DNA of 64,000 nt from Brevundimonas viscosa (lineage in GTDB: Bacteria; Pseudomonadota; Alphaproteobacteria; Caulobacterales; Caulobacteraceae), in contig NZ_FOZV01000005.1 of NCBI RefSeq assembly GCF_900116065.1, forward strand, positions 72,001 to 136,000, in the 5' to 3' direction. The position numbers were made by a program, and so were the translations under genes. A model generated the notes under the pieces. That model was not told the DNA's origin, made no database searches, and was given only the letters and a program-made list of their open reading frames with translations. Every line of letters begins with the position of its first letter. The first letter of the stretch is position 1. Positions 26,910 through 42,104 of this stretch are shown here, piece by piece.

Positions 26910-28061
26910 TTATTCGGCCATCGCCGTCTCGAACGCCCAGTCGAGCCACGGCGTCAGCGCCTCGATGTCGGCCGTGTCGACCGTGCAGCCGCACCAGATG
27001 CGCAGGCCGGCCGGCGCATTGCGATGGCTTTCGACATCGAACGCCGCGCCTTCATCCTCGACCAGCGCCTTCATTCGCCGCACCAGGGCTTGCCGCGCCG
27101 GCTCGTCCATCGTCGTGACGCGCGGATCGACGATCTTCAGGCAAACCGAAGTGGTCGACCGTGTCGCGGGGTCTTCCGCCAGATAGTCGATCCAGTCCGC
27201 CTGTCGCACCCAGGCGTCGAGCGCCGCCGCATTGGCGTTCGTCCGGGCGACGAGCGCGTCCAGCCCCCCGGCCGCGAGTCCCCACTCCACGGCGTCGATC
27301 CAGTCTTCGAGGGTCCACACCGAGAAGGTGTTGATCATTGATCCGCTCGCCAGCGTCCGGTCGAAACCGTTGGCGTCACGCAGGCGCAGCACCTTCGGAA
27401 CAGGCCGCGGCGGCGCATAGCGGTCCAGCCGCGCCACCGCTCGCGGCGACAGCGCCGCAACGCCCAGTCCTGCCTCGCCGCCCAGCGCTTTCTGGAAGCT
27501 GAAGGTCACCACGTCGAGCCGGGCCCACGGCAGCGGCATGGCGAACGCTGCGGAAGTCGCGTCGCAGATCGTCAGCCCCTCGCGGTCGGCCGCGATCCAG
27601 TCCGCGCCCGGCGCCCGCACGCCGGAGGTCGTCCCGTTCCACGGGAAAACCAGGTCGCTGGCGGGATCGACACGGGAAACGTCGGGAAACCGCCCGTACG
27701 GAGCGGTCAGCACCTCCGGCTCAAGGCCAAGGTGGTCCCGGATGTCGGTCGCCCAGACCTGCCCGAAGTTCTCGAAGGCGAGCACCTGCACCGGCCGCTC
27801 GCCCAGCATCGACCACAGGGCCGCCTCGACCGCCGCGGTGTCCGACCCGGGAACGTAGACCACCTGCCAGTCCGCCGGGACCTGCAGCAGCTCGCGCGTC
27901 AGCCTGAGTCCGTGGGCGAACCGCGCCACCACCTCCGGCGCACGGATGCCCCGGCCGAGCAGTTCGTGCGGCAAGGTCTGGCTCGACCACCCCGGACGCT
28001 TCGCCGTCGGTCCCGAAGAGAACCACGGCCGCGCCGGCTTCAAGTTGGGACGGTTCGCCAT
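26910..28061 (-). CDS. serC: Phosphoserine aminotransferase
   Basis: A PLP enzyme that transaminates 3-phosphohydroxypyruvate to phosphoserine in serine synthesis (it also acts in the pyridoxal pathway in some bacteria). The product is 383 residues from the ATG at 28061: MANRPNLKPARPWFSSGPTAKRP, trimmed here to its key part WFSSGPTAKRP, is the alphaproteobacterial form's N-terminus. The PLP lysine is in VTFSFQKALGGEAG. The start overlaps the stop of the upstream J-domain gene (ATGA). serA, often adjacent in relatives, is absent here, where purA follows directly. Confidence 0.93.
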   Translation of the reverse strand: MANRPNLKPARPWFSSGPTAKRPGWSSQTLPHELLGRGIRAPEVVARFAHGLRLTRELLQVPADWQVVYVPGSDTAAVEAALWSMLGERPVQVLAFENFGQVWATDIRDHLGLEPEVLTAPYGRFPDVSRVDPASDLVFPWNGTTSGVRAPGADWIAADREGLTICDATSAAFAMPLPWARLDVVTFSFQKALGGEAGLGVAALSPRAVARLDRYAPPRPVPKVLRLRDANGFDRTLASGSMINTFSVWTLEDWIDAVEWGLAAGGLDALVARTNANAAALDAWVRQADWIDYLAEDPATRSTTSVCLKIVDPRVTTMDEPARQALVRRMKALVEDEGAAFDVESHRNAPAGLRIWCGCTVDTADIEALTPWLDWAFETAMAE

Positions 28062-28969
28062 CAGTCTCGGAACGGCCGGATCGGCGCCTTGTCGCGCACG
28101 CCCTGGGCCCATTTGGTGAGAGTGGGATCCTCGTCACCAGGGAGCATGATCATCAGGCGCGCCAGGAGGTCGCCTCGCTTGCCGCCGGCGAACGCCCCGC
28201 GCCCCTTCAGCCGCAGGACCTTGCCCGAGCTGGACCCCTTCGGAATGGTCACGCTGACCGTACCCTCGGGCGTCCGGACCGGCGTCTTCCCCCCCAGCAA
28301 CGCGTCGGCAAGGGCGATGGGCAGATCCATGCTGAGATCGGCGCCGTCGCGGGTGAATACCGGATGCGGCGCGATCCGCAGTTCGATCAGGGCGTCGCCA
28401 TTTTCGCCGCCCCGTCCGGCTGCGCCCTGCCCCTTCAGGCGGATGACCTGCCCGTCCGCCGCCCCCTTCGGAATCGCGACATCGAGCACTCGCCCGTCCG
28501 AAAACTGGATGCGCCGGGTCGCCCCGCTGATCGAGTCCTCGAGGCTGATCTCAAGCGTCGCTCGCACGTCGGAGCCCCGACCGCTGAAGCCGCCCCGACC
28601 CGGACGGGCGCCGCCGCCGAACATGCCGCCCAGAATCTCGTCGAGGTCGATGTTCTCGAAGCCGCCGCGGGCGCCTGCTCCGAACGGACCTTGCCCGGGG
28701 CCGCCCGTTCCCCCGCGAGGGCCGCCGAAGCCGCGGAATTGCTCCCGCCCGTCTGCGTCGATCTCTCCGCGATCGAACTTCGCCCGCTTCTCGGCGTCGC
28801 CGAGCAGATCGAAGGCGGCTGTCACCCGCTTGAATCGATCCTCTGCCGCCTTGTCGCCGGGGTTCTTGTCAGGGTGGAGATCCTTGGCGAGCTTGCGGAA
28901 CGCCTTCTTGATTTCGTCCTGGCTCGCGCCCCGGGCTACGCCGAGTTCCTTGTAGGGATCGCCCGCCAC
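28061..28969 (-). CDS. DnaJ-class co-chaperone, CbpA-like
   Basis: A 302-residue J-domain protein. The J domain covers residues 4-70 with the essential HPD in LHPDKNPGD. A Gly/Phe-rich segment follows (residues 75-115), then two DnaJ C-terminal beta domains (DVRATLEISLEDSISGATR, TVSVTIPKGSSSGKVLRLKG). The CxxCxGxG zinc finger is missing, so it is of the CbpA (type II) class that stimulates DnaK ATPase. It precedes serC with a four-base overlap, and the GTA cluster ends 90 bases upstream. Confidence 0.92.
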   Translation of the reverse strand: MAGDPYKELGVARGASQDEIKKAFRKLAKDLHPDKNPGDKAAEDRFKRVTAAFDLLGDAEKRAKFDRGEIDADGREQFRGFGGPRGGTGGPGQGPFGAGARGGFENIDLDEILGGMFGGGARPGRGGFSGRGSDVRATLEISLEDSISGATRRIQFSDGRVLDVAIPKGAADGQVIRLKGQGAAGRGGENGDALIELRIAPHPVFTRDGADLSMDLPIALADALLGGKTPVRTPEGTVSVTIPKGSSSGKVLRLKGRGAFAGGKRGDLLARLMIMLPGDEDPTLTKWAQGVRDKAPIRPFRD

Positions 28970-29059: not shown

Positions 29060-32000
29060 TCAACCCGGACGCACTTCCGATTCAAGTCCCCAGCCCCAGC
29101 CGTCGCCCCACTGACTGACGGCGAAGCGGGCTGCCTCCGCGCCCTCCGGAAAATCGACGACGGCCTCCGAGGCCGGATAGAGGGCTTGCGTTCCGGAGAC
29201 CTCGAAAATTCGCAACTCGCCCTCGGCGCCCAGGACCCGCACCCTGAACCGCAGCGGATCGGAGGGAGCCGGCTCTTCCGCCCATCGGTCGCCGTCCAGG
29301 CGATGACGGGCGATCCAGCTCAGATCGAAGCCGCCGTCCACGCGGCGGATGGCGCGCGCATGGGCGGGGCTCCACGGTCGCACCCCGACGCCGCGCGCCG
29401 CCCACAGCTTTTCGGTGAAGCGGGGGCCGCCAGCCGGGAGACCGCTCAACCCCGCGCGCCAGACCAGCGGCAGACCTCGCTCGGCGGGCGGCGAGTCCAC
29501 CCGCGGCAGCTGCCCGTCCAGCATCACGCAGAGGGCGTCGGCCGGTGCGCCGCCGGCCGTCGTACCCTGCTGTCCCCGCAGCAGCCCGGTCAGCCGCCAC
29601 ACGTCGCCGCCGACCAGGTCGGCGTTGCGGAACTGCAGCAGTTCCCATTCCTCTCCGGCCTCGACCAGCACCACATTGGCGCCGGCGAGGACCGCATCCG
29701 CCGGGCGACTCTGCGGCGCCCGGCCTTCGAGGCGGACAAGCAGGGCGTTGGTCTCGTCCCAGCGGTGCCGCGGTCCTGATGACAGCGGTTCGTTCAGCCT
29801 TCCGACGGTTGCCGGCTCGGCCACCTCCGCCCGCACCGTCAGGGCATGCGGAGCCGGCCCCGCCAGCACCTGCATCGGCCTCCAGGGATCGGCAGCCACC
29901 ACCGCCAGCGGCCGGAGGTCGGATTCGGCGCCCGGCAGCGGCGGCGGGTCGAGTAGACGGAGGAAGGGCGCTCCGGCAGCCGGAACCGCCTCCGGCGCCG
30001 CAGGCAGGCGATCGTCCGCTTCCGCTTCAGGCGCGGAGATGGGCTCCAGCATGGCTGAAGGCGTCCCGTCGAGATCCAGCCGGACCACCCGCCAGTCGCC
30101 GCCGCGGAGTTCCAGCGAGACCACGTCGCCGGCCTCGAGCCGCAAGGCGTCCACCGGGCCGGGATGCAGGGTCAGCGTCTCTGCCGCGGCGTCCGCGAGC
30201 GCGCGGGCTGCGGCCGCCCGCGCCGTTGCGCCTGAGCACACGGCGGGCAGCTCCAGATCGACGCCGCCGCCGTCGGCCGCGCTGCGGACGCTCTCGGCCC
30301 CGGTCTGGTAGTCGCGATTGCCGTCGATGAAGCGCACGCGCGCAACGGCCGGCGGCGTTTCGAGCACCCGCTCGGCGCGAACGCCCGTCCCCTCTTCCGG
30401 CAAGGCCAGGTCATCGGCGGCCAGGAACGCTGCGGGCGGCTCCACGCCGCGCACCGCCACCCGTCCGCCGCGCTCCGACAGGGTCAGCCCAAGGGCCCGG
30501 ATCAGTGGCTCAAGGGCGTCGCGGGTGCGCATCGGCCGGTCGATGAGGTAGCCGGAGATTCCATCAGGCACGCCGGCCACCTCGAACATGTCATCCGTCA
30601 GGCCGCCCCGGCGCAGGATGGCCGCGATCAGGTCGTCCGCCTCTCCCGTCAGTCGGCCGTTCAGCCAGTGACCGGTGCGCCAGGCTGGCGCATCGGCCCA
30701 GACGTCGGCCCGGCCCGGAAAGGCGGGCCACGGCCGCGCATCCCAGCACCAGGCGTCGACTCCGGTCAGCATCGGTCCGCCGTAGACGGGCGAGATCGGA
30801 TTATTGGCGGCGAAATGGGCGAGGACGGCCTCGAGCGCCCGCCTTTGCATCCGGTCGTCGCGCGCGCCCGTCGAATCCGGCGGAAGCGACCCTTCGGAGC
30901 TCTTCGGGTCCTGGAACAGGTTGGGCGCATTGCCGCCCCGGTCCACCGCGGCGCAGCCGAACTCGGTCAGCCGCACCGGCTTCATGCCCGGAACCCACGC
31001 CGTCGGCTGGCCGGCGCGCACGCCGCCCGGCCGGTCATGGTGCGGACGGCTCCACCAGCTCACGAGATCCTTGACCCGGAACACCCAGTCCTCGCCGTGC
31101 GCCGTGTCGACGATCGGGGTCCGGACCTGCGCCGCACGGTCCGCCTCGGACGCGTACCACCAGTCGAAGCCTTCGCCCCCGGCCACCTGCGCGGCGAGGT
31201 AGGCGGGATCGTCGGGCCCGCCGAATGAAGCCGCGTCGAGGCCGCCGTCGCCGCCCCTCCAGTCGCCCAGCGGCGGGTACCAGTCCACGGCGACGTAATC
31301 GATCGCCGGATCGGCCCACAGCGGATCCAGGTGGAAAGCCACCTCCCCGCCGTCCCGCAGTCCGGCGTACTCTGACCAGTCGGCGGCGTAGGACAGCTGG
31401 ACCTCCGGCCCCGCCACGGCCCGGCACTCCGCCGCCAGCGACCGGAGCTCGGCGACCGCGGGAAAGCCGCCGCCGGCGTCCTGCGTCAGCGTCAGGCCGC
31501 GCATCTCCGAGCCGATCAGCAAGCCGTCCGCGCCGGTCTCCGCGGCGAGCCCGGCGTAGTGCAGCGCCAGCCGCCGCAGACCCCAGCCGTCGGCAGTCCC
31601 GAACAGGGCGGCCACATCCTCGGCGGCCTCGCCCTCGGGCCTTCCGCACACCCGCCCGCGCCATGGGTAGGCGGCCTGCTCGGCGCCGCCGTACGGGTCC
31701 GGCAAGCCGTTGCCGGGCGGGATGTCCATGAAGACGAAGGGATACAGCGTCACCTCCAGCCCCCGCGCCTTCAGCTCGGCCACGGCCTGACGCACGCTCT
31801 CGTCGGACGGCGTGCCGCCGTAGGCGGGCGCGCCGCCGCTTCCGGAGATCAGATGGGCGGTCTGCCGATCCAGTCCCGCCGCCGACCAGACCAGGGGCTC
31901 CGTCGGCTTGTCGCGTCGCTCGACACCCGGCCGGATCAGACATTCGCCGGCGCGCAGATCCGTCCCGAACCAGCCGATCACCAGGCTGACGCGCTTCAGC

Positions 32001-32767
32001 CCGGGGCACTGCGCCTGCAGATGGTCCAGCGAGACCACCAGGTCCGGCCGCCCGTCGCCGGCATGCAGGTTCTCCGCACTGGTGCGGGTCAGCCCCTCGC
32101 GACGCATCACCGGTTCTGTCGCCAGCACGAACTCGCCGGCTCCCGGGATCAGGCACACGCCCTCGAGACGATCCCCAAGCCGCGGCTCGCCGCCCCGCGG
32201 ACGCCGGAACACCTCAAAGGCCAGTTGCGGCGCGCGATCGCCATAGGGACCGAGCGGCAGGTCTTCGAACACGACATAGGCCGTGCCGCGATAGGCCGGA
32301 GCGTCGCCCTCGATCGACTCGATCAGCGGATCGGGCGTCTGGTCCGGCCCGCCCCGGTGCACCCGCATCGTGACGCCCGTCAGGTCCATCGGCCGGCCGT
32401 CCGCCCAGACCCGACCGACGCCGTCGATCTCCCCCTCGCACAGGGCGACGGCGAAGCTGAGCGAATAGCCGTAGTCGACCGTCCGCGGCCCGCCCTTGCC
32501 GCCTGCGGAGGTGCGCCGGCCCTCCAGGAAGCGCGCCGCCCAGATCATCTGGCCGGTCACCCGGGCGCGCCCGAACACGCACGGCAGCGGCGCGCCCTCG
32601 GCCGTGCCCTGCACCTTGAGCTCCTGCAATCTCGGTCCGCGCTGGCGCGGCGGCTGCAGGCCCGCGATCGCCGCACTGTCCACCATGCCGCCGAGCATGG
32701 CCCCGAGGCTCGCTCCCAGCGGCCCGCCGATCGCGCCGCCGGCCGCCCCGAACACCATCTGCGCCAT
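29060..32767 (-). CDS. GTA baseplate multidomain protein (g15 equivalent)
   Basis: At 1235 residues this is the largest GTA structural protein, the counterpart of RcGTA g15 that forms the tail tip fibre and baseplate. The N-terminal 50 residues are Gly-rich and hydrophobic (MAQMVFGAAGGAIGGPLGAS). A TIM-barrel-like domain spans roughly residues 380-720 (PYPWRGRVCG-like entry, YVAVDWYPPLGDWRGG). A phage-tail beta domain follows around 770-930 (TRDALEPLIRALGLTLSERGG). In RcGTA-type agents this protein contacts the recipient cell. Its ATG is one base from the stop of the NlpC/P60 gene. Confidence 0.95.
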   Translation of the reverse strand: MAQMVFGAAGGAIGGPLGASLGAMLGGMVDSAAIAGLQPPRQRGPRLQELKVQGTAEGAPLPCVFGRARVTGQMIWAARFLEGRRTSAGGKGGPRTVDYGYSLSFAVALCEGEIDGVGRVWADGRPMDLTGVTMRVHRGGPDQTPDPLIESIEGDAPAYRGTAYVVFEDLPLGPYGDRAPQLAFEVFRRPRGGEPRLGDRLEGVCLIPGAGEFVLATEPVMRREGLTRTSAENLHAGDGRPDLVVSLDHLQAQCPGLKRVSLVIGWFGTDLRAGECLIRPGVERRDKPTEPLVWSAAGLDRQTAHLISGSGGAPAYGGTPSDESVRQAVAELKARGLEVTLYPFVFMDIPPGNGLPDPYGGAEQAAYPWRGRVCGRPEGEAAEDVAALFGTADGWGLRRLALHYAGLAAETGADGLLIGSEMRGLTLTQDAGGGFPAVAELRSLAAECRAVAGPEVQLSYAADWSEYAGLRDGGEVAFHLDPLWADPAIDYVAVDWYPPLGDWRGGDGGLDAASFGGPDDPAYLAAQVAGGEGFDWWYASEADRAAQVRTPIVDTAHGEDWVFRVKDLVSWWSRPHHDRPGGVRAGQPTAWVPGMKPVRLTEFGCAAVDRGGNAPNLFQDPKSSEGSLPPDSTGARDDRMQRRALEAVLAHFAANNPISPVYGGPMLTGVDAWCWDARPWPAFPGRADVWADAPAWRTGHWLNGRLTGEADDLIAAILRRGGLTDDMFEVAGVPDGISGYLIDRPMRTRDALEPLIRALGLTLSERGGRVAVRGVEPPAAFLAADDLALPEEGTGVRAERVLETPPAVARVRFIDGNRDYQTGAESVRSAADGGGVDLELPAVCSGATARAAAARALADAAAETLTLHPGPVDALRLEAGDVVSLELRGGDWRVVRLDLDGTPSAMLEPISAPEAEADDRLPAAPEAVPAAGAPFLRLLDPPPLPGAESDLRPLAVVAADPWRPMQVLAGPAPHALTVRAEVAEPATVGRLNEPLSSGPRHRWDETNALLVRLEGRAPQSRPADAVLAGANVVLVEAGEEWELLQFRNADLVGGDVWRLTGLLRGQQGTTAGGAPADALCVMLDGQLPRVDSPPAERGLPLVWRAGLSGLPAGGPRFTEKLWAARGVGVRPWSPAHARAIRRVDGGFDLSWIARHRLDGDRWAEEPAPSDPLRFRVRVLGAEGELRIFEVSGTQALYPASEAVVDFPEGAEAARFAVSQWGDGWGWGLESEVRPG

Positions 32768-33220
32768 TCAGCCCGCTCCGTTTTCGGCAAGAGGCCAGGT
32801 GAACGCAGCCACCAGCCGGCGCCGCCACCAACTCCCCATCCAGCTCTCGACCACGGCGCGACCCCAGTACGCATGGATCATCCGCGCCTCGCCTGTCGCG
32901 CACGCCTCGCTCAGGATCGCGCAATGCTTGGCGGGGCAGCCGGGCGCCATCCGGAACAGGAGCACATCCCCGGGCTCGGCCCGGTCCAGGGGGATCTCCC
33001 GGAGCCACCGGCGCGCGGCGGCCCACAGCGTTTCCTCGCCGCCGACCTCCGCCCAGTCCGGCGCATAGGGCGGCGGCGCTTCCGGCTCGGGACCGATCAC
33101 CTCGCGCCAGATTCCGCGGAGCAGGCCGAGGCAATCGGCGCCCTCGCCCCTGACGCTCGCCTGATGCCGGTAGGGCGTTCCGATCCAGCCGCGCGCGGCC
33201 GACAGGATCACGACCCTCAT
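32768..33220 (-). CDS. GTA tail cell-wall peptidase, NlpC/P60 type (g14 equivalent)
   Basis: A 150-residue NlpC/P60-fold protein, matching the RcGTA g14 peptidase that is thought to open the recipient peptidoglycan or assist tail assembly. The nucleophile Cys30 lies in GEGADCLGLLRG and the catalytic His99 in PAKHCAIL, both in the expected order. It overlaps the stop of g13 by four bases and abuts g15. Activity is inferred from the intact dyad. Confidence 0.93.
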   Translation of the reverse strand: MRVVILSAARGWIGTPYRHQASVRGEGADCLGLLRGIWREVIGPEPEAPPPYAPDWAEVGGEETLWAAARRWLREIPLDRAEPGDVLLFRMAPGCPAKHCAILSEACATGEARMIHAYWGRAVVESWMGSWWRRRLVAAFTWPLAENGAG

Positions 33221-33870
33221 CGCCGGCTCCCCCCGTCGTTGCGCCCGCCTTGGACCGGCGTCGCGGTCAGGAAATCGTCGCCCGGCACGTCGGGGAAGCC
33301 CTGGAAGTTCACGCCGTTGGAGAAGACGCCCGTGCAGGTCGCCCAGCGCCTGTCACAGGTCGCGCCGGGAAAGGTCGCGAGATCCACCCGGCAGCGCTCG
33401 TCGCCCAGCACGGCGTCGCAGTCCCGGCCGCAGGTTCGCCCGACGACGCGTTCGAGAGCCGCCAGCGGCCCCTCCAGTTCGGCCACGAAACGATCGCCCT
33501 CGCAGCGGATCCTCGCCAGGCGCGCCTGCTGCAAACGCACCCCCAGATCCGGCCGTCGCCAGTCGACCCGCCACAAGGCCACGTCGGCCCGATCGTACAG
33601 TCCGGCTTCGACATCCTCTGCGCGCAACGCCTCGTCATCCAGCCCGCCGGCGGCGGAGAGGGTCCCGCAGGTCCCGCCGATCTCCCCGTCCACCGCGCCT
33701 GCCGTCCACCCGCTCGCCGCGCGGCACAGCACGCCGTCGACGTCCAGGTCGCGGTCGTGATCAGTGAACCCCGACACCACGCCATCGCGCCGGGTCAGGA
33801 TCCAGACATGACACAGCGGCGCCGCTCCGCTCTCGATCCGGGCCGCCATTTCCTCCGGCACATGTCGCAT
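33217..33870 (-). CDS. GTA tail hub protein, DUF2163 (g13 equivalent)
   Basis: A 217-residue DUF2163/TIGR02218 protein, the counterpart of RcGTA g13 in the tail hub. The N-terminal part (ARIESGAAPLCHVWILTRRDG, then FTDHDRDL) is typical. A cysteine cluster in the C-terminal half (RTCGRDCDAVLGDERC, TCDRRW) matches the place where the family can hold a metal or iron-sulfur centre. It lies two bases downstream of the distal tail gene and overlaps g14. Confidence 0.93.
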   Translation of the reverse strand: MRHVPEEMAARIESGAAPLCHVWILTRRDGVVSGFTDHDRDLDVDGVLCRAASGWTAGAVDGEIGGTCGTLSAAGGLDDEALRAEDVEAGLYDRADVALWRVDWRRPDLGVRLQQARLARIRCEGDRFVAELEGPLAALERVVGRTCGRDCDAVLGDERCRVDLATFPGATCDRRWATCTGVFSNGVNFQGFPDVPGDDFLTATPVQGGRNDGGSRR

Positions 33871-33872
33871 GG

Positions 33873-34496
33873 TCAGACCCGAATCTCGATCAGCGGCACA
33901 GCCGCCATCCGACCCGCCTCGAAACTCTCCAGCGTCACCTCGATGCGATCGGTGTCGAACCGCACCGGAACGTCGAATTCGAAGCCGGCCGACACGGGCA
34001 CGTCCGCCGCCGGAGCCGTCTCCAGCGTCACAAGGCCGGTCGAGTCGTCGACGCCGAAGGCGCCGGTCTCCAGCCCGTCGACCGTCACCCGCACCGTCCC
34101 CGCCACCGGTTTGGAGATCCGGCGTTGCAGGGCGGACTCGCCCTCGCCGTAGCGCTTCACCAGCTGGAAAGACGTGCGCGATCCGTCGCCGACGCCAAGC
34201 GCCTGGTCGGTCGGCCCGGGAGCCTCTCCAGAGGAACAGGAGCGGTAATCCGCGAAGTCCCGGAACCGGAAGCCGTACAGCTGGCCTTTCCGAGCTTCAA
34301 AGAAGGCGGTCAAGGCCGCCATGTCGGACAGCGACCGCAGGGTCGCGCCGATCAGGTAACGCCGCCGACCTTCGGCCCACGGCGTGGACCGGCGCTCGAA
34401 GCCCGAGGCCAGGGTGACGATCTCGGTCCGCCTCTCGATTCCACCAGTCGAGCCGAACGCAAGTCGCGCCGGCAGCCTCACCTCATGAAAACTCAT
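33873..34496 (-). CDS. GTA distal tail protein, DUF2460 (g12 equivalent)
   Basis: A 207-residue TIGR02217/DUF2460 protein that in RcGTA forms the distal tail ring. The N-terminus MSFHEVRLPARLAFGSTGG is highly typical, followed by FFEARKGQLYGFRFRDFADYRS (key part QLYGFRFRDF). It is the first gene of the last GTA block. The plus-strand DUF805 gene separates it from the tape-measure gene, with 128 bases between the two divergent starts. It therefore needs either its own promoter or read-through across that gene. Confidence 0.94.
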   Translation of the reverse strand: MSFHEVRLPARLAFGSTGGIERRTEIVTLASGFERRSTPWAEGRRRYLIGATLRSLSDMAALTAFFEARKGQLYGFRFRDFADYRSCSSGEAPGPTDQALGVGDGSRTSFQLVKRYGEGESALQRRISKPVAGTVRVTVDGLETGAFGVDDSTGLVTLETAPAADVPVSAGFEFDVPVRFDTDRIEVTLESFEAGRMAAVPLIEIRV

Positions 34497-34624
34497 CTAG
34501 TCTCCTCGCGGAACAGACCGCCGGAAGCGCCAGGCGCCGAACGCCTCCGCAGGGGTTCCCTTGTCCGGCGAGCGGGGTTCGGTCATGGTTCGGGCCGCAA
34601 CCGCGTGTCAGGGAGGGCCGCTGC

Positions 34625-35110
34625 ATGACCATGGACTCTTCAACCCAGGTTCAGAGCTTCGACTGGAAGCATCTGTTCTTCTCGTTCGAGGGCCGCACCC
34701 GTCGGTCGCATTTCTGGATCGGCTGGCTCGTCTGCCTCGGGGCGGGCGTGGTCGCGGGGTGGCTTCCGCTGATCGGAGCCGTGATCTCCATAGCGCTGAT
34801 CTGGCCGAACCTCGCCATTACGGTGAAGCGGCTCCACGATATGGGCCACACCGGCTGGCTTGCGGCGATCCCCTGGGTCGTCGGAATCGTCGGCTCGATC
34901 GTCGCCATCAGCATGATGGGCTTCAGCGCAGTCATGAACGCGTCCGCCCTCGAGAACGAGGATCCCGCTGCGATCATGGCCCTGATCGGTCCGGCCTTCG
35001 GCCTGTTCGCCCTGATGTTCCTCGTGGGTCTCGGCTTTCTGCTCTGGATCGGTCTCACCGACAGCCAGCCAGGCGACAACCGTTTCGGCCCCAATCCGAA
35101 GGGCCTCTGA
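34625..35110 (+). CDS. DUF805 membrane protein inserted antisense in the GTA cluster
   Basis: A 161-residue inner-membrane protein of the DUF805 family. The signature FEGRTRRSHFWIGWL is followed by three or four transmembrane helices (residues about 38-60, 75-92, 95-110 and 130-152) and the C-terminal GLTDSQPGDNRFGPNP typical of the family. The function of DUF805 is not established. It is on the opposite strand to all GTA genes, ends three bases before the tape-measure stop, and so sits wholly antisense to any continuous GTA transcript. GGAGGG lies upstream of the ATG. Confidence 0.92.
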   Translation: MTMDSSTQVQSFDWKHLFFSFEGRTRRSHFWIGWLVCLGAGVVAGWLPLIGAVISIALIWPNLAITVKRLHDMGHTGWLAAIPWVVGIVGSIVAISMMGFSAVMNASALENEDPAAIMALIGPAFGLFALMFLVGLGFLLWIGLTDSQPGDNRFGPNPKGL

Positions 35111-35113
35111 AAC

Positions 35114-35638
35114 CTACAGCCGGCGCGCGCCCAACCTGACGGCGCGCGCCAGCATCTGGGCGATCTGCGCCTCTGAACGCAGCAACGCGGGCGCCCCGCC
35201 GTCCATGGTGACGTTCACCGTCACGCCCCCGCCAACTGGCGGCTCCACCGTCCCGGAGACAGCCGGCCGGAACACCTCCGGTCCGCGCTCCCCGACCAGA
35301 TAGGCGCCGCCGGCCGTCACCGGCCCGCCCTCGGCCCGACTTCCGGCGAAGACCGGGCCAAGCGCCCGCCCGATCGCATCCGACAGACCCCCGCGCGCGC
35401 CCGCGGCGGCGGCGACGGCCGCCAGCACCGCCCGCGCCAGCTCGGCCAGCGTCACCTCGCCGTCGGCCGCAGCCCGCGCGAGTGATCGCGCGAGGCCTTC
35501 GCCGGCCCGGCCAAAGGCCGTCTCGATCGCCTCCGCCGCCCGCTCCGCCGGTTCTCTCAGTCCTTCCAGCGCCGCCGCCGCTTCCGCCGCCTGCTCCGGC
35601 ACCCGACCGAGGGATCCGCCCTGGCTCCATTCATTCAT
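35114..35638 (-). CDS. GTA tail tape-measure protein (g11 equivalent)
   Basis: A 174-residue Ala/Glu/Arg-rich protein in the g11 position. The middle is helical (EQAAEAAAALEGLREPAERA) and the C-terminal part reads GGAYLVGERGPEVFRPAVSG, a motif found at the end of tape-measure proteins of this class. Tape-measure length sets tail length in phages, so its small size predicts a short tail. It overlaps the 58-residue g10.1 gene by eight bases. Confidence 0.88.
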   Translation of the reverse strand: MNEWSQGGSLGRVPEQAAEAAAALEGLREPAERAAEAIETAFGRAGEGLARSLARAAADGEVTLAELARAVLAAVAAAAGARGGLSDAIGRALGPVFAGSRAEGGPVTAGGAYLVGERGPEVFRPAVSGTVEPPVGGGVTVNVTMDGGAPALLRSEAQIAQMLARAVRLGARRL

Positions 35639-35807
35639 CGGGCCACGCCTCCGCCAGCCGCTCCAACTCGCGACGATCCATCGCTCCGGGCCCTTGGCCG
35701 GGCTCCACCAGCATCCGCCACTCCCGCAGCGACAGCCGCCAGAAGGCGTCCGGCGGCACCCCGGCGGCGAACGCCCGGCGCAGCATCTCTCCCCACGGCG
35801 TCTTCAT
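35631..35807 (-). CDS. GTA small tail-assembly protein (g10.1 equivalent)
   Basis: A 58-residue open frame between g10 and g11, read from the sequence itself. It starts MKTPWGEMLRRAFAAG, contains FWRLSLREWRMLVEP and ends LERLAEAWPDE. This matches the small rcc01693-like/TIGR02216 proteins of RcGTA, thought to be a tail assembly chaperone extension. Its start overlaps the end of g10 by four bases and its stop overlaps the tape-measure start by eight bases, so it is translationally coupled on both sides. Confidence 0.88.
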   Translation of the reverse strand: MKTPWGEMLRRAFAAGVPPDAFWRLSLREWRMLVEPGQGPGAMDRRELERLAEAWPDE

Positions 35808-36094
35808 CCCGCCGCCGCGACGAACGCCCGGCTCACGGCCGCGGCGGCCTCCCGGGGATCCACGGCCGCCTGATCGAGCCCGTCCGCCGCTTCCAGCTCC
35901 CCACCGCCTCGAAGCAACGCCGCCAGCACGACCAGGAGATCGCGGGCCGATAGAAGGCGCAGGCGGTCGGCCAGGGCCGCGGCGCCCTCGACGCCCAGCG
36001 CCGCCTCGATCTCCGCCAGTGCGCCGAGCGTGAGGCAGAGCCGTCGCGGCTGGCCAGCCAGGTCGACCCGGACCTCTCCCCTTGCGCCGTTCAT
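35804..36094 (-). CDS. GTA family protein, tail assembly chaperone (g10 equivalent)
   Basis: A 96-residue protein in the position and of the size of RcGTA g10 (GTA-gcc family). It contains RRLCLTLGALAEIEAALGVEG, whose core LGALAEIEAALG is the family signature. In phages the tail assembly chaperone coats the tape measure before tail-tube assembly; that role is inferred. The start overlaps the major tail protein stop by four bases. Confidence 0.9.
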   Translation of the reverse strand: MNGARGEVRVDLAGQPRRLCLTLGALAEIEAALGVEGAAALADRLRLLSARDLLVVLAALLRGGGELEAADGLDQAAVDPREAAAAVSRAFVAAAG

Positions 36095-36504
36095 CCGATC
36101 GCCTCGAAGCTCATCTCTCCGGCGCTGGCCAGGCTTATGGCGAAGCTCGCCTCCCCCTCATGCTCGCCGGCATATTCCAGCGCGGCGACCAGGAACGGCC
36201 CCTCCAGTTGCCCGAAATCCGGCACGATCAGCCGCCAGCGGCGCGCCGACTGGTCGAAGAAGGCCTCCCGGATCAGCGCATCCGACGCCGCGTCGCGGAA
36301 GATTCCCTGCCCGCTCACCGCCGCTGACTTCACGCCGGCGCCCGCCAGCAGTTCGCGCCACCGGCCGGCGCTGTCGCCGTCGGTCGCGTCCACCGTCCGC
36401 GCGTTCAGCGCGATGGTCCGCGCTCTCAGCCCGGCGACGGTGATGAACGTCCCCGGAGCGTCCTCGATCTTCAACAGGATGTCCCTGCCTCGCTGCGCCG
36501 CCAT
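36091..36504 (-). CDS. GTA major tail tube protein (g9 equivalent)
   Basis: A 137-residue major tail protein. MAAQRGRDILLKIED and FITVAGLRARTIALN are the typical opening of the GTA tail-tube subunit, which has the beta-barrel fold shared by siphophage tubes. The closing SLASAGEMSFEAI is also typical. It forms the hexameric tube. It follows the tail terminator gene by ten bases and is coupled to g10. Confidence 0.93.
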   Translation of the reverse strand: MAAQRGRDILLKIEDAPGTFITVAGLRARTIALNARTVDATDGDSAGRWRELLAGAGVKSAAVSGQGIFRDAASDALIREAFFDQSARRWRLIVPDFGQLEGPFLVAALEYAGEHEGEASFAISLASAGEMSFEAIG

Positions 36505-36514
36505 GGCGATCTCC

Positions 36515-36913
36515 TCACATGTCCTCGGTCACGGCGCGCACCCGCATCACCGCATAGGTTCGATGCCCGGCCGGAGAGGGCCAGACGTCGGCGAACCGGA
36601 CGCCCACATCGACCGTGCGCACCCCGTCCGCCTGCAGCGCCGCATCGGACAGGCTCATGCGGATCGCCGCGACGATCGCCTTGGCCTCCTCGCTTCCGCG
36701 GAAGCGGGACACCGCCTTCAGCGTGAGCGCGTGCTCCACCCCGCCGCCTTCGCCGGGCAGCGGACGGCTTTCGCTGCGCCCGATCACGAGGTGCGGGTGC
36801 TCTGGGTTCTCCGGCGCCGCGTCCCACTGTCGATCGGCCAGCAGGGCCGAGACCCCCGGATCGGCGCGCAGGTGCGCCAGCAGCGCCTTCTGCAGCGCGC
36901 GTTCATGCATCAT
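36515..36913 (-). CDS. GTA tail terminator, DUF3168 (g8 equivalent)
   Basis: A 132-residue DUF3168 protein. It begins MMHERALQKALLAHLRADPGV and contains HPHLVIGRSESR, as in RcGTA g8, the ring that caps the tail tube where it joins the head. The start overlaps the head-closure gene stop by four bases. Assignment rests on size, gene order and these motifs. Confidence 0.92.
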   Translation of the reverse strand: MMHERALQKALLAHLRADPGVSALLADRQWDAAPENPEHPHLVIGRSESRPLPGEGGGVEHALTLKAVSRFRGSEEAKAIVAAIRMSLSDAALQADGVRTVDVGVRFADVWPSPAGHRTYAVMRVRAVTEDM

Positions 36914-37203
36914 CTCGGCCGCTCCAGATTCAGTATCGCCCGGCCGCCCACCGTCTCGCCGGAACGGATCCGCCAGTCGGCGCCGCCGAAGCGCAGCACG
37001 CGGCCGCCCTCCAGACGTGCATCCGCGCGCGTCTCGCCGGTGACGGTCTCCATGACGTGCAGCCCGCCGGCCTCGGTCCGCTCCCTGCGCCGTCGCGGCC
37101 CCAGCTTCAGCCAGACCCAGCCGAGCGGCTCATAGGTGACGCTGCGACCGCCGTAGGGCGTCTCCGCCTCCACCGCCTCCAGCAGTTCCGCCAGCGTCTT
37201 CAC
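36910..37203 (-). CDS. GTA head closure/head-tail adaptor (g7 equivalent)
   Basis: A 97-residue small beta-rich head-tail joining protein (phage_H_T_join type). MKTLAELLEAVEAETPYGG and WLKLGPRRRRERTEAGG are visible. It corresponds to RcGTA g7, sitting between the portal adaptor and the tail terminator. It is overlapped by four bases with both neighbours. Confidence 0.88.
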   Translation of the reverse strand: MKTLAELLEAVEAETPYGGRSVTYEPLGWVWLKLGPRRRRERTEAGGLHVMETVTGETRADARLEGGRVLRFGGADWRIRSGETVGGRAILNLERPR

Positions 37204-37466
37204 AGCCGCACCTGGCGATAGGGCGCGATCCAGGCCTCGACGGGCCGGATGGGCATGTCGCGCTCGCCGCGCTCATAGGCGCGCAGCACCAGCATCAGCA
37301 CCGCCAGCCGCAGCGGCGCCGGCGAGGCGGCGTCGAGAACCTGGCTGGTCTCCGCCTCGATCCGCGCCTGCGCCGCCTCGATCAGGGTCTGGATCAGCCC
37401 GTCCTCGGCGTCGTGCTCGACGCGCAGGAACAGCCTCGCCTCGGCGAGAGTCACCGCTGCGGTCAT
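37200..37466 (-). CDS. GTA head-tail connector (g6 equivalent, HK97 gp6-like)
   Basis: An 88-residue helical adaptor: TLAEARLFLRVEHDAED and LIEAAQARIEAETSQVL are typical of gp6-like connectors that dock under the portal ring. I chose the ATG at 37466 because GAGGTGG lies five bases upstream; a GTG three codons earlier overlaps that site. It lies 94 bases downstream of the capsid gene, the largest gap in the middle block. Confidence 0.9.
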   Translation of the reverse strand: MTAAVTLAEARLFLRVEHDAEDGLIQTLIEAAQARIEAETSQVLDAASPAPLRLAVLMLVLRAYERGERDMPIRPVEAWIAPYRQVRL

Positions 37467-37560
37467 AGGAACCACCTCGAATGGAATTGAAGATGGCGAG
37501 AAGCGCCAGGCGGAGGGGCTCCCCGCCGTCTGGCGCCTGTTGCCTGCTGCCTCCTAAGCC

Positions 37561-38799
37561 TCAGTTCGCGCTGAACTTCATCACCTTGATCGCGTCGAAG
37601 TCCTGCACGCCGCCGCCGACGCGGCGGGTGGTGTAGAACAGCACGTACGGCTTGGCGGAGTACGGGTCCCTCAGCACCCGCACGCCTGCCCGGTCGACGA
37701 TCAGGTAGCCGCGGCGGAAGTCGCCGAAGGCGATGGCGGGCGCATCGGCCGCCACATCGGGCATGGTCTCGATCTCGGTGACCGGATAGCCCAGCAGGCT
37801 TGCGGTCTCGCCCGCCCGCTGCGCCGGCTGCCAGATGTAGTTGCCGTCGGCGTCCTTAAACTTGCGCACCGTCGAGACCGTCCGTCGGTTCATGACGAAG
37901 CGCGCGTTCGGCCGGTACTGGGCCTTGGGCGCATAGACCAGGTCGATCAGCCGGTCGGTCGGCCCTTGCGTGGGGAAGGCCCCCGCCGAGCCCGAGGCGA
38001 CATAGCCGATCTCGCCCCAGCTTTGGCCCGCGTCGGCGACGATGTCGTAGTCGAGGAAGCCGCGCGGCTTGTTGAGGCCGTCGCCGTTGACGAAGGCCTC
38101 GGTCTCCTGCGCCGCGAAGGCGTCCTCCACCTCGCCGGCCAGCCATTCGTCCAGGTCGACGAGGGCGTCGTCCAGCAGCGTCTGCGTCGCCGCCGGGCAG
38201 GCGTAGAGGTCGGCCGCCGGGAACTCCAGCAACGCCAGCGTCGCCGGATCCGTCTCCGGCCGCGCCGCCGTCTCGGCGACCCACCCGGAGCCCACCCCCG
38301 CGATCGACACCGGCTTCCTGAACACGCCCGCCGCCACCGTCCGCACCGTCGAGATCTCGCGCATCGGCGATCCGGCCATCAGTCGCCGCTCGATGGCGCG
38401 CTCCGTCTGCTCGGGCACGACGTAGCCGCCGGAGTTCGGCGCCGTCGACAGACCCGCCTTCACCTCCAGGCCAACCCCGGCCCGCAGGTAGCCATCGAAC
38501 GCCGCCTTGGTCTCCTCTCCCGCAGGGGCAAGAGGACCGCCTAAGGCGGTGGCGGAGCTCTCGCCGATCGACGGCCGCCGCGCCTCGCTGGCGACCCGGT
38601 CCAGCCGCGCCTGCGCCGCCGCGACGGCCTGGTCGATCCGCGCCACCTTCTCCTCCAGCAGGGAGTCGGCCGACATCTTGCGCTCGATCTCGTCCAGCCG
38701 GGCGTCGTTGGCGCCTTTGAACGCCTCGAAGGCCGCCATCATCTCGTGCAGGGCGGCGCGCGCCTCCGGCGTGGCCGGAGCCTGTTTGGTCTCTTTCAT
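37561..38799 (-). CDS. GTA major capsid protein, HK97 fold (g5 equivalent)
   Basis: A 412-residue phage major capsid protein. Residues 1-75 form the delta-domain/scaffold coiled coil (LDEIERKMSADSLLEEKVARI), removed by the protease in RcGTA. The mature HK97 domain starts near residue 105 (STAPNSGGYVVPEQ) and ends with the YVLFYTTRRVGGGVQDFDAIK region. Residues 80-96 (ESSATALGGPLAPAGEE) are encoded by an in-frame copy of a dispersed palindromic repeat, exactly in the linker between the removed and mature parts. GGAG precedes the ATG, and only 47 bases separate it from a divergent gene. Confidence 0.96.
   Translation of the reverse strand: MKETKQAPATPEARAALHEMMAAFEAFKGANDARLDEIERKMSADSLLEEKVARIDQAVAAAQARLDRVASEARRPSIGESSATALGGPLAPAGEETKAAFDGYLRAGVGLEVKAGLSTAPNSGGYVVPEQTERAIERRLMAGSPMREISTVRTVAAGVFRKPVSIAGVGSGWVAETAARPETDPATLALLEFPAADLYACPAATQTLLDDALVDLDEWLAGEVEDAFAAQETEAFVNGDGLNKPRGFLDYDIVADAGQSWGEIGYVASGSAGAFPTQGPTDRLIDLVYAPKAQYRPNARFVMNRRTVSTVRKFKDADGNYIWQPAQRAGETASLLGYPVTEIETMPDVAADAPAIAFGDFRRGYLIVDRAGVRVLRDPYSAKPYVLFYTTRRVGGGVQDFDAIKVMKFSAN
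38512..38562. repeat. Palindromic repeat copy C, inside the capsid gene
   Basis: On the plus strand: CCTCTCCCGCAGGGG, then AGAGGACCGCC taa GGCGGTGGCGGAG. The layout is that of the intergenic copies near 6780 and 19231 (CCTCCCC..GCAGGGG..GGGGGACC-hairpin-GGTGG). It is translated in frame on the other strand as capsid residues 80-96, without stop codons. Confidence 0.72.
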
Positions 38800-38846
38800 G
38801 ATGTCTCCGCTTCTCAGGAACCGCGCATCGCGGTTAGGGTCCGGAG

Positions 38847-39662
38847 GTGACGCGCACGCCCCGGGAAACTCTCCACGTCCAGCCGGACCGCCGCACGGGC
38901 GGCTACACTCGCCTCGAACGGACGGTGATGGACGCCCTCGCCCGCGAACTCCGCAGCGAAGCGCCTGACCTTGCGGCCCAGTTTGCCGCCAGCCGGCCCA
39001 CCGTCCGCCGCAACTCCGGCTTCGGCGTCTTCACCGAGGTCCTCGTCCCGCCGGAGCGGCCGACCTCCGGGCCGACCGGCGAGTTCGGAACGGTCCACGT
39101 CGTGATCTCCGGCCTCGCCGATCCGGTGGCCTTCCGCGCCCGCCTGCGAAACGGCCGGCTGCTTGGACTGCTCGGCGACAGCTACGGACGGGACACCCGC
39201 TCCACCGACTTTGCATCGGTCCCCTTCGATCAGGTCTTCACCGTCGACGCGACGGGACGCTCCGTACCCTTCGAAGTCGCTTCACAGACCGTTCGCCCGC
39301 CTGCACCGCGCCCCGTCCAGCCAGCGCCGGCTCCGCCGTCACGCCCCCCGGAACCCGTCCTCGTTCAGCTCCGTACCGGTGCGACGCCGCCGCCGCGCCC
39401 AGGTCCTGCGCAGGAGCCCGCGTCGTCCCCCGCTTCATCCGGGGACCTCAGTCCCGAGGAACGGACCACCCTGCGCATCGGTCTCTGGACGGGCCTGTTC
39501 GCGCTGGGATCGATCCTCGTTCTGGTCTTCGAGGTCCCGATCCCCTTCGTCTTCATCGCCGCCTTCGTCGCGGGCCGCTTCTTCCAGACCGATCGCGGCC
39601 TCGACCTTCTCAGGCGAACGCTGACGTCGCTTCAGCAGGCGGCACGGGAACGGCAGGCCTGA
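38847..39662 (+). CDS. Unrecognised Pro-rich membrane-anchored protein inserted in the GTA cluster
   Basis: A 271-residue protein that I do not recognise. Residues 1-140 look like a folded domain (TRLERTVMDALARELRSEAP; FGVFTEVLVPPERP; GTVHVVISGLADPVAFRARL). Residues 145-205 are a Pro/Ala-rich linker. Residues 208-250 hold two closely spaced hydrophobic segments (IGLWTGLFALGSILVLVF and VPFVFIAAF-like), so the protein is probably membrane-anchored. The GTG start follows CCGGAGG. It is on the plus strand between capsid and protease genes, and its last 53 bases overlap the 3' end of the protease gene. Confidence 0.75.
   Translation: MTRTPRETLHVQPDRRTGGYTRLERTVMDALARELRSEAPDLAAQFAASRPTVRRNSGFGVFTEVLVPPERPTSGPTGEFGTVHVVISGLADPVAFRARLRNGRLLGLLGDSYGRDTRSTDFASVPFDQVFTVDATGRSVPFEVASQTVRPPAPRPVQPAPAPPSRPPEPVLVQLRTGATPPPRPGPAQEPASSPASSGDLSPEERTTLRIGLWTGLFALGSILVLVFEVPIPFVFIAAFVAGRFFQTDRGLDLLRRTLTSLQQAARERQA
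39425..39446. repeat. Hairpin-forming repeat-like segment in the Pro-rich linker
   Basis: GTCCCC (39425-39430) and GGGGAC (39441-39446) can pair across ten bases in the segment encoding SPASSGDLS. It resembles a short palindromic insert, but no second copy was found in the window, so its status as a repeat is weak. Confidence 0.35.
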
Positions 39663-40068
39663 ACCGGGCGCCCGGCAGCATAGGGAAGGTGACCAGCGAC
39701 ACCTCCCATAGATCCACCTCGACCAGCACCCTCAGGGCCCCGGCCCGGCGCGCCCGAACCGGCCGGAAGCCGATCGACAACCCGTCCATCGCGCCGGCCC
39801 GCGCCAGGGCGCCCGCGAACCTCGCCTCGGCCGACCAGTCCAGGATGCGGCCGCGGACCAGCAGCCCCTGCTCGTCCTCCGTCAATTCGTCCCACACGCC
39901 GACGACGGCGCGCCCCTCATGCTGGTGCAGCATCCGCACTCCGGCGGCCCCGGACCTCGCCAGGCTGGCGGCGAACGCGCCCCGCACCAGCACGTCCCGG
40001 TTCAGATCCGCGACGCCCCACAGAGAGGCGTAGCCCGAGATCGGCAGGCCCTCCGCGGCGCCGGTCAC
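39610..40068 (-). CDS. GTA prohead protease, HK97 type (g4 equivalent)
   Basis: A 152-residue U35-family prohead protease. ISGYASLWGVADLNRDVLVRGAF opens the fold; its core GYASLWGVADLNRD is diagnostic. The catalytic His is in MLHQHEG and the Ser in AMDGLSIGFRPV. It cleaves the capsid delta-domain during head maturation. The GTG start overlaps the g3.5 stop (GTGA). Its 3' end overlaps the end of the convergent unrecognised gene by 53 bases. Confidence 0.94.
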   Translation of the reverse strand: MTGAAEGLPISGYASLWGVADLNRDVLVRGAFAASLARSGAAGVRMLHQHEGRAVVGVWDELTEDEQGLLVRGRILDWSAEARFAGALARAGAMDGLSIGFRPVRARRAGALRVLVEVDLWEVSLVTFPMLPGARFRPAVPVPPAEATSAFA

Positions 40069-40289
40069 GACCGCGCCTCCAGTCGCCGCTCGATCCGCGC
40101 CACGCTGGCCCGCACCGCCTCGCCCTGCGCCTCCAGACGCGCCAGCCGCTCCGCCACCAGGCGCTGCTCCCCGACCCGCTCCTCCAGCGCCGCGATCCGG
40201 GCCGCGGCCCCGCCCGCCCACACCAGCCCACCCAGCGTCTGGGCCGCCAGCACGGCGATCAGGGCGACCGGCAATCTCAGACGCTCCAT
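40065..40289 (-). CDS. Small GTA protein between portal and protease (g3.5 equivalent)
   Basis: A 74-residue protein with one N-terminal transmembrane helix (LPVALIAVLAAQTLGGLVWAG) and a coiled-coil tail (VGEQRLVAERLARLEAQ). It occupies the place of RcGTA g3.5. The ATG at 40289 starts one base after the portal stop and was preferred to an upstream ATG inside the portal gene. Its function is not known. Confidence 0.8.
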   Translation of the reverse strand: MERLRLPVALIAVLAAQTLGGLVWAGGAAARIAALEERVGEQRLVAERLARLEAQGEAVRASVARIERRLEARS

Positions 40290-40290
40290 C

Positions 40291-41448
40291 TCAGCCCTCC
40301 ACACCGGCCATGCGGCGGCGCTCCTCGTCGGTGAGGAAGGCGGCGGCGTTCAACCGCGCCCACAGCGCCTCCCGCTCGGGCTGCAGCGCCGGCACGGCGT
40401 CGAGGTCCGCCTCGACCCGCACATCGGCGAACCGCCCACCCAGCCATCCGGTCAGCGCGGCCGCCGCCTTGCGCACCAGCGGCGCGACCGTGCCCCGCCA
40501 GAAGGCGGCGTTGGCCTCCCGATAGTTGGCGTAGGTGGCGTCTCCCGGAATGCCCAGCAGTTGCGGCGGTACGCCGAAGGCGAGGGCGATCTCCCGGGCC
40601 GCCGCGTGCTTGCCGGCGACGAAGTCCATGTCGGCCGGGGTCCAGCTCATCGGCTTCCAGTCCAGCCCGCCCTCGAGGATTAGCGGCCGTCCGGCGTTCC
40701 GGGCCCCGGCATGCAGGTCGTCGATCTGACCGCGCAGGGCCTCGAACTGTTCGGCGGTCAGCCCCTCGCCGTCGCGCCCGCCGTAGACCAGCGCCCCGCT
40801 CGGCCGCGCCGCATTGTCCAGCAGCGCCTTGTTCCAGGCCCCCGAGGCGTTGTGCACGTCGATGGCGAAGGCGGCCGCCTCCAGCGGCGAGAAGCCGTAG
40901 TGGTCGTCGGTTGGATGAAACAGCTTGAGATGCAGCACCGGCAGCCATCCGTCGGCCGCCCGCCCCAGCCGCACCGACCGGCTGTCGACCGCGTACTCGT
41001 AGCCTTCGGGCCAGCCCCCACGTCCCGGGATCACCATCATCCGGTCCGGCCTCAGGGACCACAGCTCCTCCGGCTCGCCCTCGCCAACCGCTTCGACATA
41101 GGCGTTTCCCGCGGTCTGCAGGGCGCCGTACAGCCCCTCCAGGAACTCGACGCCGGACTGCTCCGGATTGGGCCGCGCCAGCAGCCTGGCCAGCGGATGG
41201 TCGTCCGCCCGGACCCCGTCCGCGAAGACCGTCAGCGGGGTGGCCGCTGCGGCCTCGGCGATCATCCTGACGCAGCGGTAGACCACGGCGTTCTTGCCGA
41301 ACCCCTCGGTGGCGAGGCTCGCGTAATCCCGCGGCGTCCAGCGCGGGCGTCCCCCGGCCGAAATGGCGATCAGCGGCCCGGCGCGGCTGTCCTTGATCTC
41401 GGGCGCGGCGATGCGCCGCCGGCCGAAGGGCCGTCGCCAGTCCAGCAT
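40291..41448 (-). CDS. GTA portal protein (g3 equivalent)
   Basis: A 385-residue HK97-type portal. The N-terminus MLDWRRPFGRR and YASLATEGFGKNAVVYRCVRMIAEAAA (key part GFGKNAVVYRCVRMIA) are typical, as are LLARPNPEQSGVEFLE, GFSPLEAAAFAIDVHN and ALAFGVPPQLLGIPGD. It forms the DNA-entry ring of the head. The frame extends upstream to 41571 without homology, so the ATG at 41448 is used. In RcGTA the large terminase gene precedes the portal; here the next gene upstream is an unrelated YcgN-like protein. Confidence 0.95.
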   Translation of the reverse strand: MLDWRRPFGRRRIAAPEIKDSRAGPLIAISAGGRPRWTPRDYASLATEGFGKNAVVYRCVRMIAEAAAATPLTVFADGVRADDHPLARLLARPNPEQSGVEFLEGLYGALQTAGNAYVEAVGEGEPEELWSLRPDRMMVIPGRGGWPEGYEYAVDSRSVRLGRAADGWLPVLHLKLFHPTDDHYGFSPLEAAAFAIDVHNASGAWNKALLDNAARPSGALVYGGRDGEGLTAEQFEALRGQIDDLHAGARNAGRPLILEGGLDWKPMSWTPADMDFVAGKHAAAREIALAFGVPPQLLGIPGDATYANYREANAAFWRGTVAPLVRKAAAALTGWLGGRFADVRVEADLDAVPALQPEREALWARLNAAAFLTDEERRRMAGVEG

Positions 41449-41567
41449 GAGTTGTCTCCGTGTTCCCGGGCGGGCCCGTCTTCCCGACCCCGCCGAACCC
41501 TTCTCCGGGTCATGACTGGAGTATGGGGCGCCAGCGTCCAAGGGCGGACATTCCCGGATTGTTTTTC

Positions 41568-41579
41568 GCAAGCCCTTGC
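41568..41579. promoter_or_regulatory. Inverted repeat upstream of the GTA portal gene
   Basis: GCAAG-CC-CTTGC is an inverted repeat in an AT-richer patch of the 161-base gap between the portal gene and the YcgN-like gene. This gap must contain the promoter for the first GTA block if no terminase precedes it. No clear -35/-10 pair could be fixed. It is a candidate regulator site only. Confidence 0.35.
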
Positions 41580-41609
41580 TTTTGCCGAAGGTCTTTCCGC
41601 GAGCCGGGC

Positions 41610-42104
41610 CTACAATTCGTCCTCAGCGCCGCGTTCCGCCTTCCACTCCGGCGCCTCGAAGTCGAGAGCGTCCTCGGGCTCCTTCAGCGCCGTCTCCGAC
41701 ACCGTCTGCCCCCGCACCGACACCCCGGCCTGGTGCACCGTCTCCGCGCTGCCGGACACCAGCGGATGCCAGCTCGCCAGCGGCCGCCCCTCATGGATGC
41801 GGCGGTAGGCGCAGGACTTCGGCATCCACTCCAGCGCCTCGATGTTCCACGGCGTCAGCTTGATGCAGTCCGGCACGTGCTCCCGGCGATTGGCGTAGTC
41901 CGAGCAGGTGCAGCGCACCGGGTCGAACAGCTTGCAGTGCACCCGGGTCGGGATCACCTCGCCGGTGTCCTCGTCCTCGAACCGCACCAGGCAGCACAGC
42001 CCGCACCCGTCGCACAGGCTCTCCCACTCCGCGCGGGTCATCTGGTCCAGCCGTTTGGTTTCCCAGAAGGGCTTGGAGGCCGGGTCGGTACGCTCTACAT
42101 CCAC
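41610..42104 (-). CDS. YcgN-family cysteine-cluster protein
   Basis: A 164-residue protein of the YcgN/UPF0260 family. The cysteine cluster LCDGCGLCCLVRFEDEDTG (residues 30-48), HCKLFDPVRCTCSDYANR and VPDCIKLTP are the family signature and suggest metal binding. CAYRRIHEGRPLASWHPL is also typical. No function has been established. The start is taken as the GTG at 42104 behind GGGGAG; the frame runs on upstream only as antisense of the ABC-F gene. It is divergent from that gene, 36 bases apart. Confidence 0.85.
   Translation of the reverse strand: MDVERTDPASKPFWETKRLDQMTRAEWESLCDGCGLCCLVRFEDEDTGEVIPTRVHCKLFDPVRCTCSDYANRREHVPDCIKLTPWNIEALEWMPKSCAYRRIHEGRPLASWHPLVSGSAETVHQAGVSVRGQTVSETALKEPEDALDFEAPEWKAERGAEDEL

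Follow-up and report, generated by a model that had tools for sequence, protein, structure and literature searches.

The window analysed here is a 64,000-nucleotide stretch of Brevundimonas viscosa DNA (G000:C16:72001-136000 within a 3.0-Mb genome), and positions below are window positions unless a contig is named. It holds the structural cluster of a gene transfer agent (GTA) of the type of RcGTA from Rhodobacter capsulatus, with which it shares the gene order g3-g15; the genome also encodes a GafZ-type (DUF6456) activator protein at G000:C16:213676-214080. The GTA genes lie on the minus strand and are split into three blocks by two plus-strand genes, one for a DUF805 membrane protein and one for an orphan protein that we call X271. 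The initial annotation described this arrangement, and we confirmed its coordinates, strands and identities:

34625-35110, plus strand: DUF805 membrane protein, 161 aa, antisense insert between g11 and g12 (PF05656, E 8e-17)
38847-39662, plus strand: X271, orphan membrane-anchored protein, 271 aa, antisense insert between g4 and g5
39610-41571, minus strand: GTA block 1, g3 portal and g4 prohead protease (PF04860, PF04586)
35114-38799, minus strand: GTA block 2, g5 capsid to g11 tape-measure (PF05065, PF05135, PF05521, PF11367, PF06199, PF11836, weak PF09718)
29060-34496, minus strand: GTA block 3, g12 (DUF2460), g13, g14 (NlpC/P60) and g15 (GTA_TIM) (PF09343, PF09931, PF00877, PF13547)

The packing is as tight as had been stated: 3 bp separate the DUF805 stop (end 35110) from the g11 stop (start 35114), and X271 and g4 overlap by 53 bp (39610-39662). 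To our knowledge the RcGTA structural cluster has no antisense inserts. The cluster in the window differs from it in this respect and also in that its terminase lies outside the cluster.

Judged from sequence comparison, DUF805 and X271 are real genes under purifying selection. Homologous antisense open reading frames occupy the same junctions in relatives (79 for DUF805, 62 for X271), and the median ratio of non-synonymous to synonymous substitution rates (dN/dS, NG86) was 0.21 for DUF805 (19 pairs) and 0.36 for X271 (17 pairs), alongside 0.21 for g12 and 0.13 for the capsid gene. Between the window and its close relative L059 the ratios were 0.10 and 0.37 for DUF805 and X271, respectively; by this measure X271 evolves fast. 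The DUF805 protein matches the PF05656 profile with 62.1 bits (curated cut-off 25.7) and its AlphaFold2 model is all-helical with a mean pLDDT of 90. The X271 model (mean pLDDT 83) consists of an N-terminal alpha/beta domain (residues ~22-141, pLDDT ~95), a disordered proline-rich linker and predicted C-terminal transmembrane helices. No Pfam or PHROGs family scored above cut-off with X271, and searches of the PDB by sequence and by fold gave no significant match for either protein.

We mapped the GTA genes in about 200 Caulobacteraceae loci, made up of 80 named capsid-region loci and further stretches from genomes of the family; for part of these loci the genus given is our own inference. Two junctions, g4/g5 and g11/g12, are recurrent sites of insertion. 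Among the first 101 loci, a scan limited to insert families supported by homology found that 14 of 18 families (including c6 at g3-g4, which has a low-complexity look and is possibly spurious) and 189 of 198 genes (a count inflated by shared ancestry) were antisense, against 4 families and 9 genes in the sense orientation. Intact GTAs carrying neither DUF805 nor X271 are common. A third antisense site, g8/g9, was seen in three loci of a Caulobacter subgroup (L137, L138 and L139), where it holds a DUF6882 protein.

Phage morons, such as bor of lambda, are autonomous genes inserted between phage genes, sometimes on the opposite strand, with a benefit on the side of the lysogen. Like them, the inserts described here lie between genes that neighbour each other in relatives: g11 and g12, and likewise g4 and g5, are contiguous in the Phenylobacterium-like loci L144, L145 and L155. 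They differ from phage morons in that the carrier is a GTA and not a phage, that nearly all are antisense and that DUF805 outlives the element.

Antisense DUF805 was found at g11/g12 in 62 of 87 near-complete GTA loci, among them Brevundimonas-type, Caulobacter-type and some other loci, and was missing from 25. Four Phenylobacterium-like loci (L144, L145, L155 and L157) have no DUF805, and g11 is directly adjacent to g12. None of the surveyed loci had DUF805 in the sense orientation at a GTA. The junction often holds more than one copy, with two to four divergent antisense DUF805 genes arrayed in tandem (four in L143; also L146 and L075).

The fate of DUF805 where the GTA is gone could be followed by using the genes that flank the cluster as markers for the site in GTA-less genomes:

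28061-28969, minus strand: dnaJ-like gene, downstream flank (PF00226, PF01556)
41610-42077, minus strand: ycgN-like gene, upstream flank, directly before g3 (PF03692; start estimated from the conserved region)

Five loci with zero GTA genes (L180, L181, L226, L227 and L230) keep DUF805 antisense between ycgN and dnaJ, and a sixth, L231, has it antisense at the same site beside a g12 remnant; the L231 copy contains one TGA inside its tblastn alignment and is therefore perhaps damaged. In a tree, the L227 gene is sister to the GTA-borne gene of L141, from the same genus, and the L231 gene groups with the GTA-borne gene of L193 (both 100/99), which is the pattern expected from deletion of the GTA with DUF805 kept. 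Partial GTA deletions have retained the gene in L132, L124/L182, L179, L237 and L228 and lost it in L234, L236 and L254. Retention after GTA loss is frequent, not universal. In one same-genus genome (G058) the gene lies ~457 kb away from the GTA locus (L235, G058:C2:536836-537315) and, by its position, has moved out of the cluster. Being retained without the GTA and under purifying selection, DUF805 behaves as a gene dispensable to the element and of value to the host. We also considered that DUF805 resided between ycgN and dnaJ before the GTA arrived; this is less parsimonious, as the gene sits mid-cluster and the GTA-less L231 keeps a g12 remnant alongside it.

At g4/g5 the usual antisense gene in the genus of the window is X271, which adjoins the GTA capsid gene in all 20 of the same-genus genomes with a match. 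Our alignment model did not find it in genomes sampled from other genera, where one other search gave weak matches. It has been kept in the partly deleted GTAs of L234 and L236, and none was seen in GTA-less loci. GTAs without X271 do exist, which makes it dispensable to the element. The initial annotation had raised the question of whether both genes keep their positions across GTA loci; DUF805 does so in several genera but not in the Phenylobacterium-like lineage, and X271 only within the genus. Elsewhere the junction is taken up by unrelated antisense cargo. In Caulobacter loci L148, L154 and L156 this is a protein of the glyoxalase/bleomycin-resistance type, in L124 and L132 a 4HBT thioesterase together with an M20 peptidase, and in L119 and L121 a P-loop protein; unknown membrane proteins also occur. 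DUF805 is the gene that best fits the description of a moron. X271 is a less certain one because it is restricted to the GTA junction, and a GTA-linked function is possible.

Two short elements may bear on expression of the inserts:

34561-34589, plus strand: promoter-like pair TTGTCC - 17 bp - CATGGT, 35 bp before the DUF805 ATG, from comparative footprinting
38819-38840, plus strand: dyad AACCGC-N5-GCGGTT followed by TAGGGT, candidate promoter/operator within the 47 bp that separate the divergently oriented starts of g5 and X271

The first is the sole conserved block of the DUF805-g12 gap in the subclade of the window, where it may provide DUF805 with a promoter of its own. The pattern TTGTNN-N17-CAYNNT occurs upstream of DUF805 in 16 of 51 loci (those of this subclade), on the reverse strand in 0 of 51 and in 0.04% of shuffles. 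We do not claim a family-wide DUF805 promoter, as a generic pattern matched just 14 of 95 copies. The same gap contains no comparable conserved block directed at g12, so g12-g15 are probably reliant on read-through from upstream. The dyad is shared, somewhat altered, by most of the aligned relatives and is unique in the genome, and we regard it as a candidate promoter/operator. A search for intrinsic terminators found none that was convincing (4 sites against 2.5 expected).

A likely explanation for these observations is that the two plus-strand genes are autonomous, moron-like passengers in the cluster of a domesticated prophage, the RcGTA-type GTA. The initial annotation had mentioned cargo or moron genes as an alternative, and the recurrent sites, the purifying selection and the retention of DUF805 without a GTA fit it. 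The passengers would occupy two tolerated junctions, g4/g5 and g11/g12, and would be transcribed from their own promoters while the GTA is off. We infer that the antisense orientation is favoured on two counts: leaky expression of the costly structural genes would follow from a constitutive promoter that faced the same way as the GTA, and a sense gene lacking a promoter would be active in no cells but the small number close to lysis. DUF805 would be an old and stable resident that either entered the family early or disappeared from the Phenylobacterium line, and that is maintained for a role in the host independent of the GTA. The g4/g5 junction would be a variable cargo bay, taken by X271 in the genus of the window and by the bleomycin-resistance-type protein in Caulobacter. 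In GTA-on cells, a processive antiterminated transcript would probably cross both genes antisense, as a by-product and not as a needed circuit. Such read-through is likely because the entire C. crescentus cluster is transcribed from one start site with GafZ antitermination (PMC11150451) and a GafZ-type protein is encoded here.

Several points weigh against this explanation: (i) the orientation bias is modest at the level of families (p ~0.03); (ii) X271 was never seen away from the GTA junction, an oddity if the passenger is fully independent; (iii) most GTA-less loci are a bare ycgN-dnaJ spacer of 100-200 bp without DUF805, and the GTA-less set was partly chosen for DUF805 presence, six of the retaining loci having been fetched that way, so that no retention rate can be read from the counts; (iv) five distant GTA-less DUF805 copies (L241, L252, L261, L274 and L275) are long-branched and of unsure orthology, and are weaker evidence; and (v) the promoter-like footprint is conserved in the subclade of the window only, and a simple sigma-70 consensus scan shows no promoter. 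The scan was uninformative, and comparative footprinting worked better.

It is possible, but in our estimate unlikely, that both genes serve GTA-specific accessory functions, in the envelope, in release or in protection of producers or recipients, with a timing different from that of the structural genes. Both products are predicted membrane proteins, and the confinement of X271 to the GTA junction, together with its survival in partly deleted but not in GTA-less loci, would be expected of such a gene. However, DUF805 persists without a GTA and has been relocated away from it in G058, GTAs often remain intact without either gene, and release in C. crescentus uses the LypABC system, encoded elsewhere in the genome (PMC13236601).

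A bolder reading, to which we give slightly less credence still, is that GTA clusters carry antisense cargo over long periods in fixed loading bays. As the bays are antisense, cargo would be active in the majority of cells, where the GTA is off, and silenced in producers by the GTA transcript. Cargo such as bleomycin resistance or X271 would then pay for a costly locus, and X271 would be GTA-linked and would benefit or protect non-producing kin.

The excludon is a concept from Listeria, and an excludon-like switch had been proposed for the window in the initial annotation: the GTA and antisense transcripts would be mutually exclusive, with the inserts keeping the GTA off and GTA induction silencing the inserts. 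The likeness lies in the convergent, closely packed or overlapping 3' ends and in the probable long antisense transcript that a single start site with antitermination would generate. X271 also overlaps g4, or ends within 10 bp of its stop, in 18 of 41 loci. Beyond the window, however, the 3' gaps are variable (medians of 61 bp for DUF805 and 178 bp for X271), and tight packing is for the most part not conserved. The partners also separate freely, DUF805 persisting without GTA genes and GTAs without DUF805, X271 or both, and the inserted families can take one another's place. The comparative data thus reveal neither mutual dependence nor a conserved overlapping pair with opposed functions, and a regulatory switch is not required to explain them. 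Furthermore, GTA-on cells lyse, and silencing in them would presumably have little inherited effect. GTAs without DUF805, DUF805 without GTAs and the unconserved 3' packing favour passengers over a switch, which we consider improbable. Least probable of all is that the inserts are neutral and tolerated by chance in a decaying prophage: the genus does contain decaying GTAs (L132, L234, L236 and L254) and the structural cluster of the window is without a terminase, but DUF805, X271, g5 and g12 are under purifying selection and DUF805 is conserved across genera.

There is precedent for one antisense passenger of this kind. CCNA_02873, an antisense gene in the C. crescentus GTA locus annotated as bleomycin resistance, was described by Gozzi et al. 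(PMC9632790), and its deletion accounts for the zeocin hypersensitivity of a whole-cluster GTA deletion. It resembles the glyoxalase/bleomycin-resistance-type gene that we found antisense at g4/g5 in Caulobacter. X271 is an unrelated protein with no match to the glyoxalase/VOC family, and the window has a second antisense site, that of DUF805 at g11/g12. Of the two antisense sites, g4/g5 has been published in part and g11/g12 apparently has not; we found no mention of DUF805 together with gene transfer agents in open-licence papers, although an earlier mention elsewhere is possible. Phage morons, then, are already known and one antisense GTA gene has been published; what is new is that the antisense DUF805 site is family-wide, that the gene survives loss of the GTA and that there are two recurrent, mostly antisense insertion sites.

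These findings bear on why GTAs persist though their producers die. If host-beneficial antisense passengers do sit at fixed sites, deletion of a cluster would be costly because a useful passenger gene is removed with it, and GTA conservation could in part be hitchhiking in reverse. A practical consequence is that phenotypes of whole-cluster deletions can stem from passengers. Zeocin sensitivity in C. crescentus is one such case, and DUF805, as a conserved gene, would be a second, so far unremarked confounder.

The individual GTA genes of the window, all on the minus strand, are:

29060-32767, minus strand: g15
32768-33220, minus strand: g14
33217-33870, minus strand: g13
33873-34496, minus strand: g12
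35114-35638, minus strand: g11
35804-36094, minus strand: g10
36091-36504, minus strand: g9
36515-36913, minus strand: g8
36910-37203, minus strand: g7
37200-37475, minus strand: g6
37561-38799, minus strand: g5
39610-40221, minus strand: g4
40291-41571, minus strand: g3

The cluster begins at g3, and the g3/ycgN junction (41571-41610) has no terminase gene; most relatives carry the terminase in the cluster. Two intact terminase-like genes are found at other places in the genome (G000:C7:537569-538804 and C14:64410-65732), and the relative G143 likewise has two. The in-cluster terminase is also missing in the close relatives L059, L061, L063, L079, L080 and L125. The usual cluster promoter may have been lost together with it. 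GTA clusters elsewhere in the genus are decaying (L234, L236, L254 and L276), either with g6-g14 deleted and g5 joined to a truncated g15 or with almost all genes lost. Finally, three records titled Pseudanabaena, Porphyrobacter and Bordetella (L077, L096 and L120) bear Brevundimonas-type GTA loci and are probably contaminant contigs or mislabelled bins.

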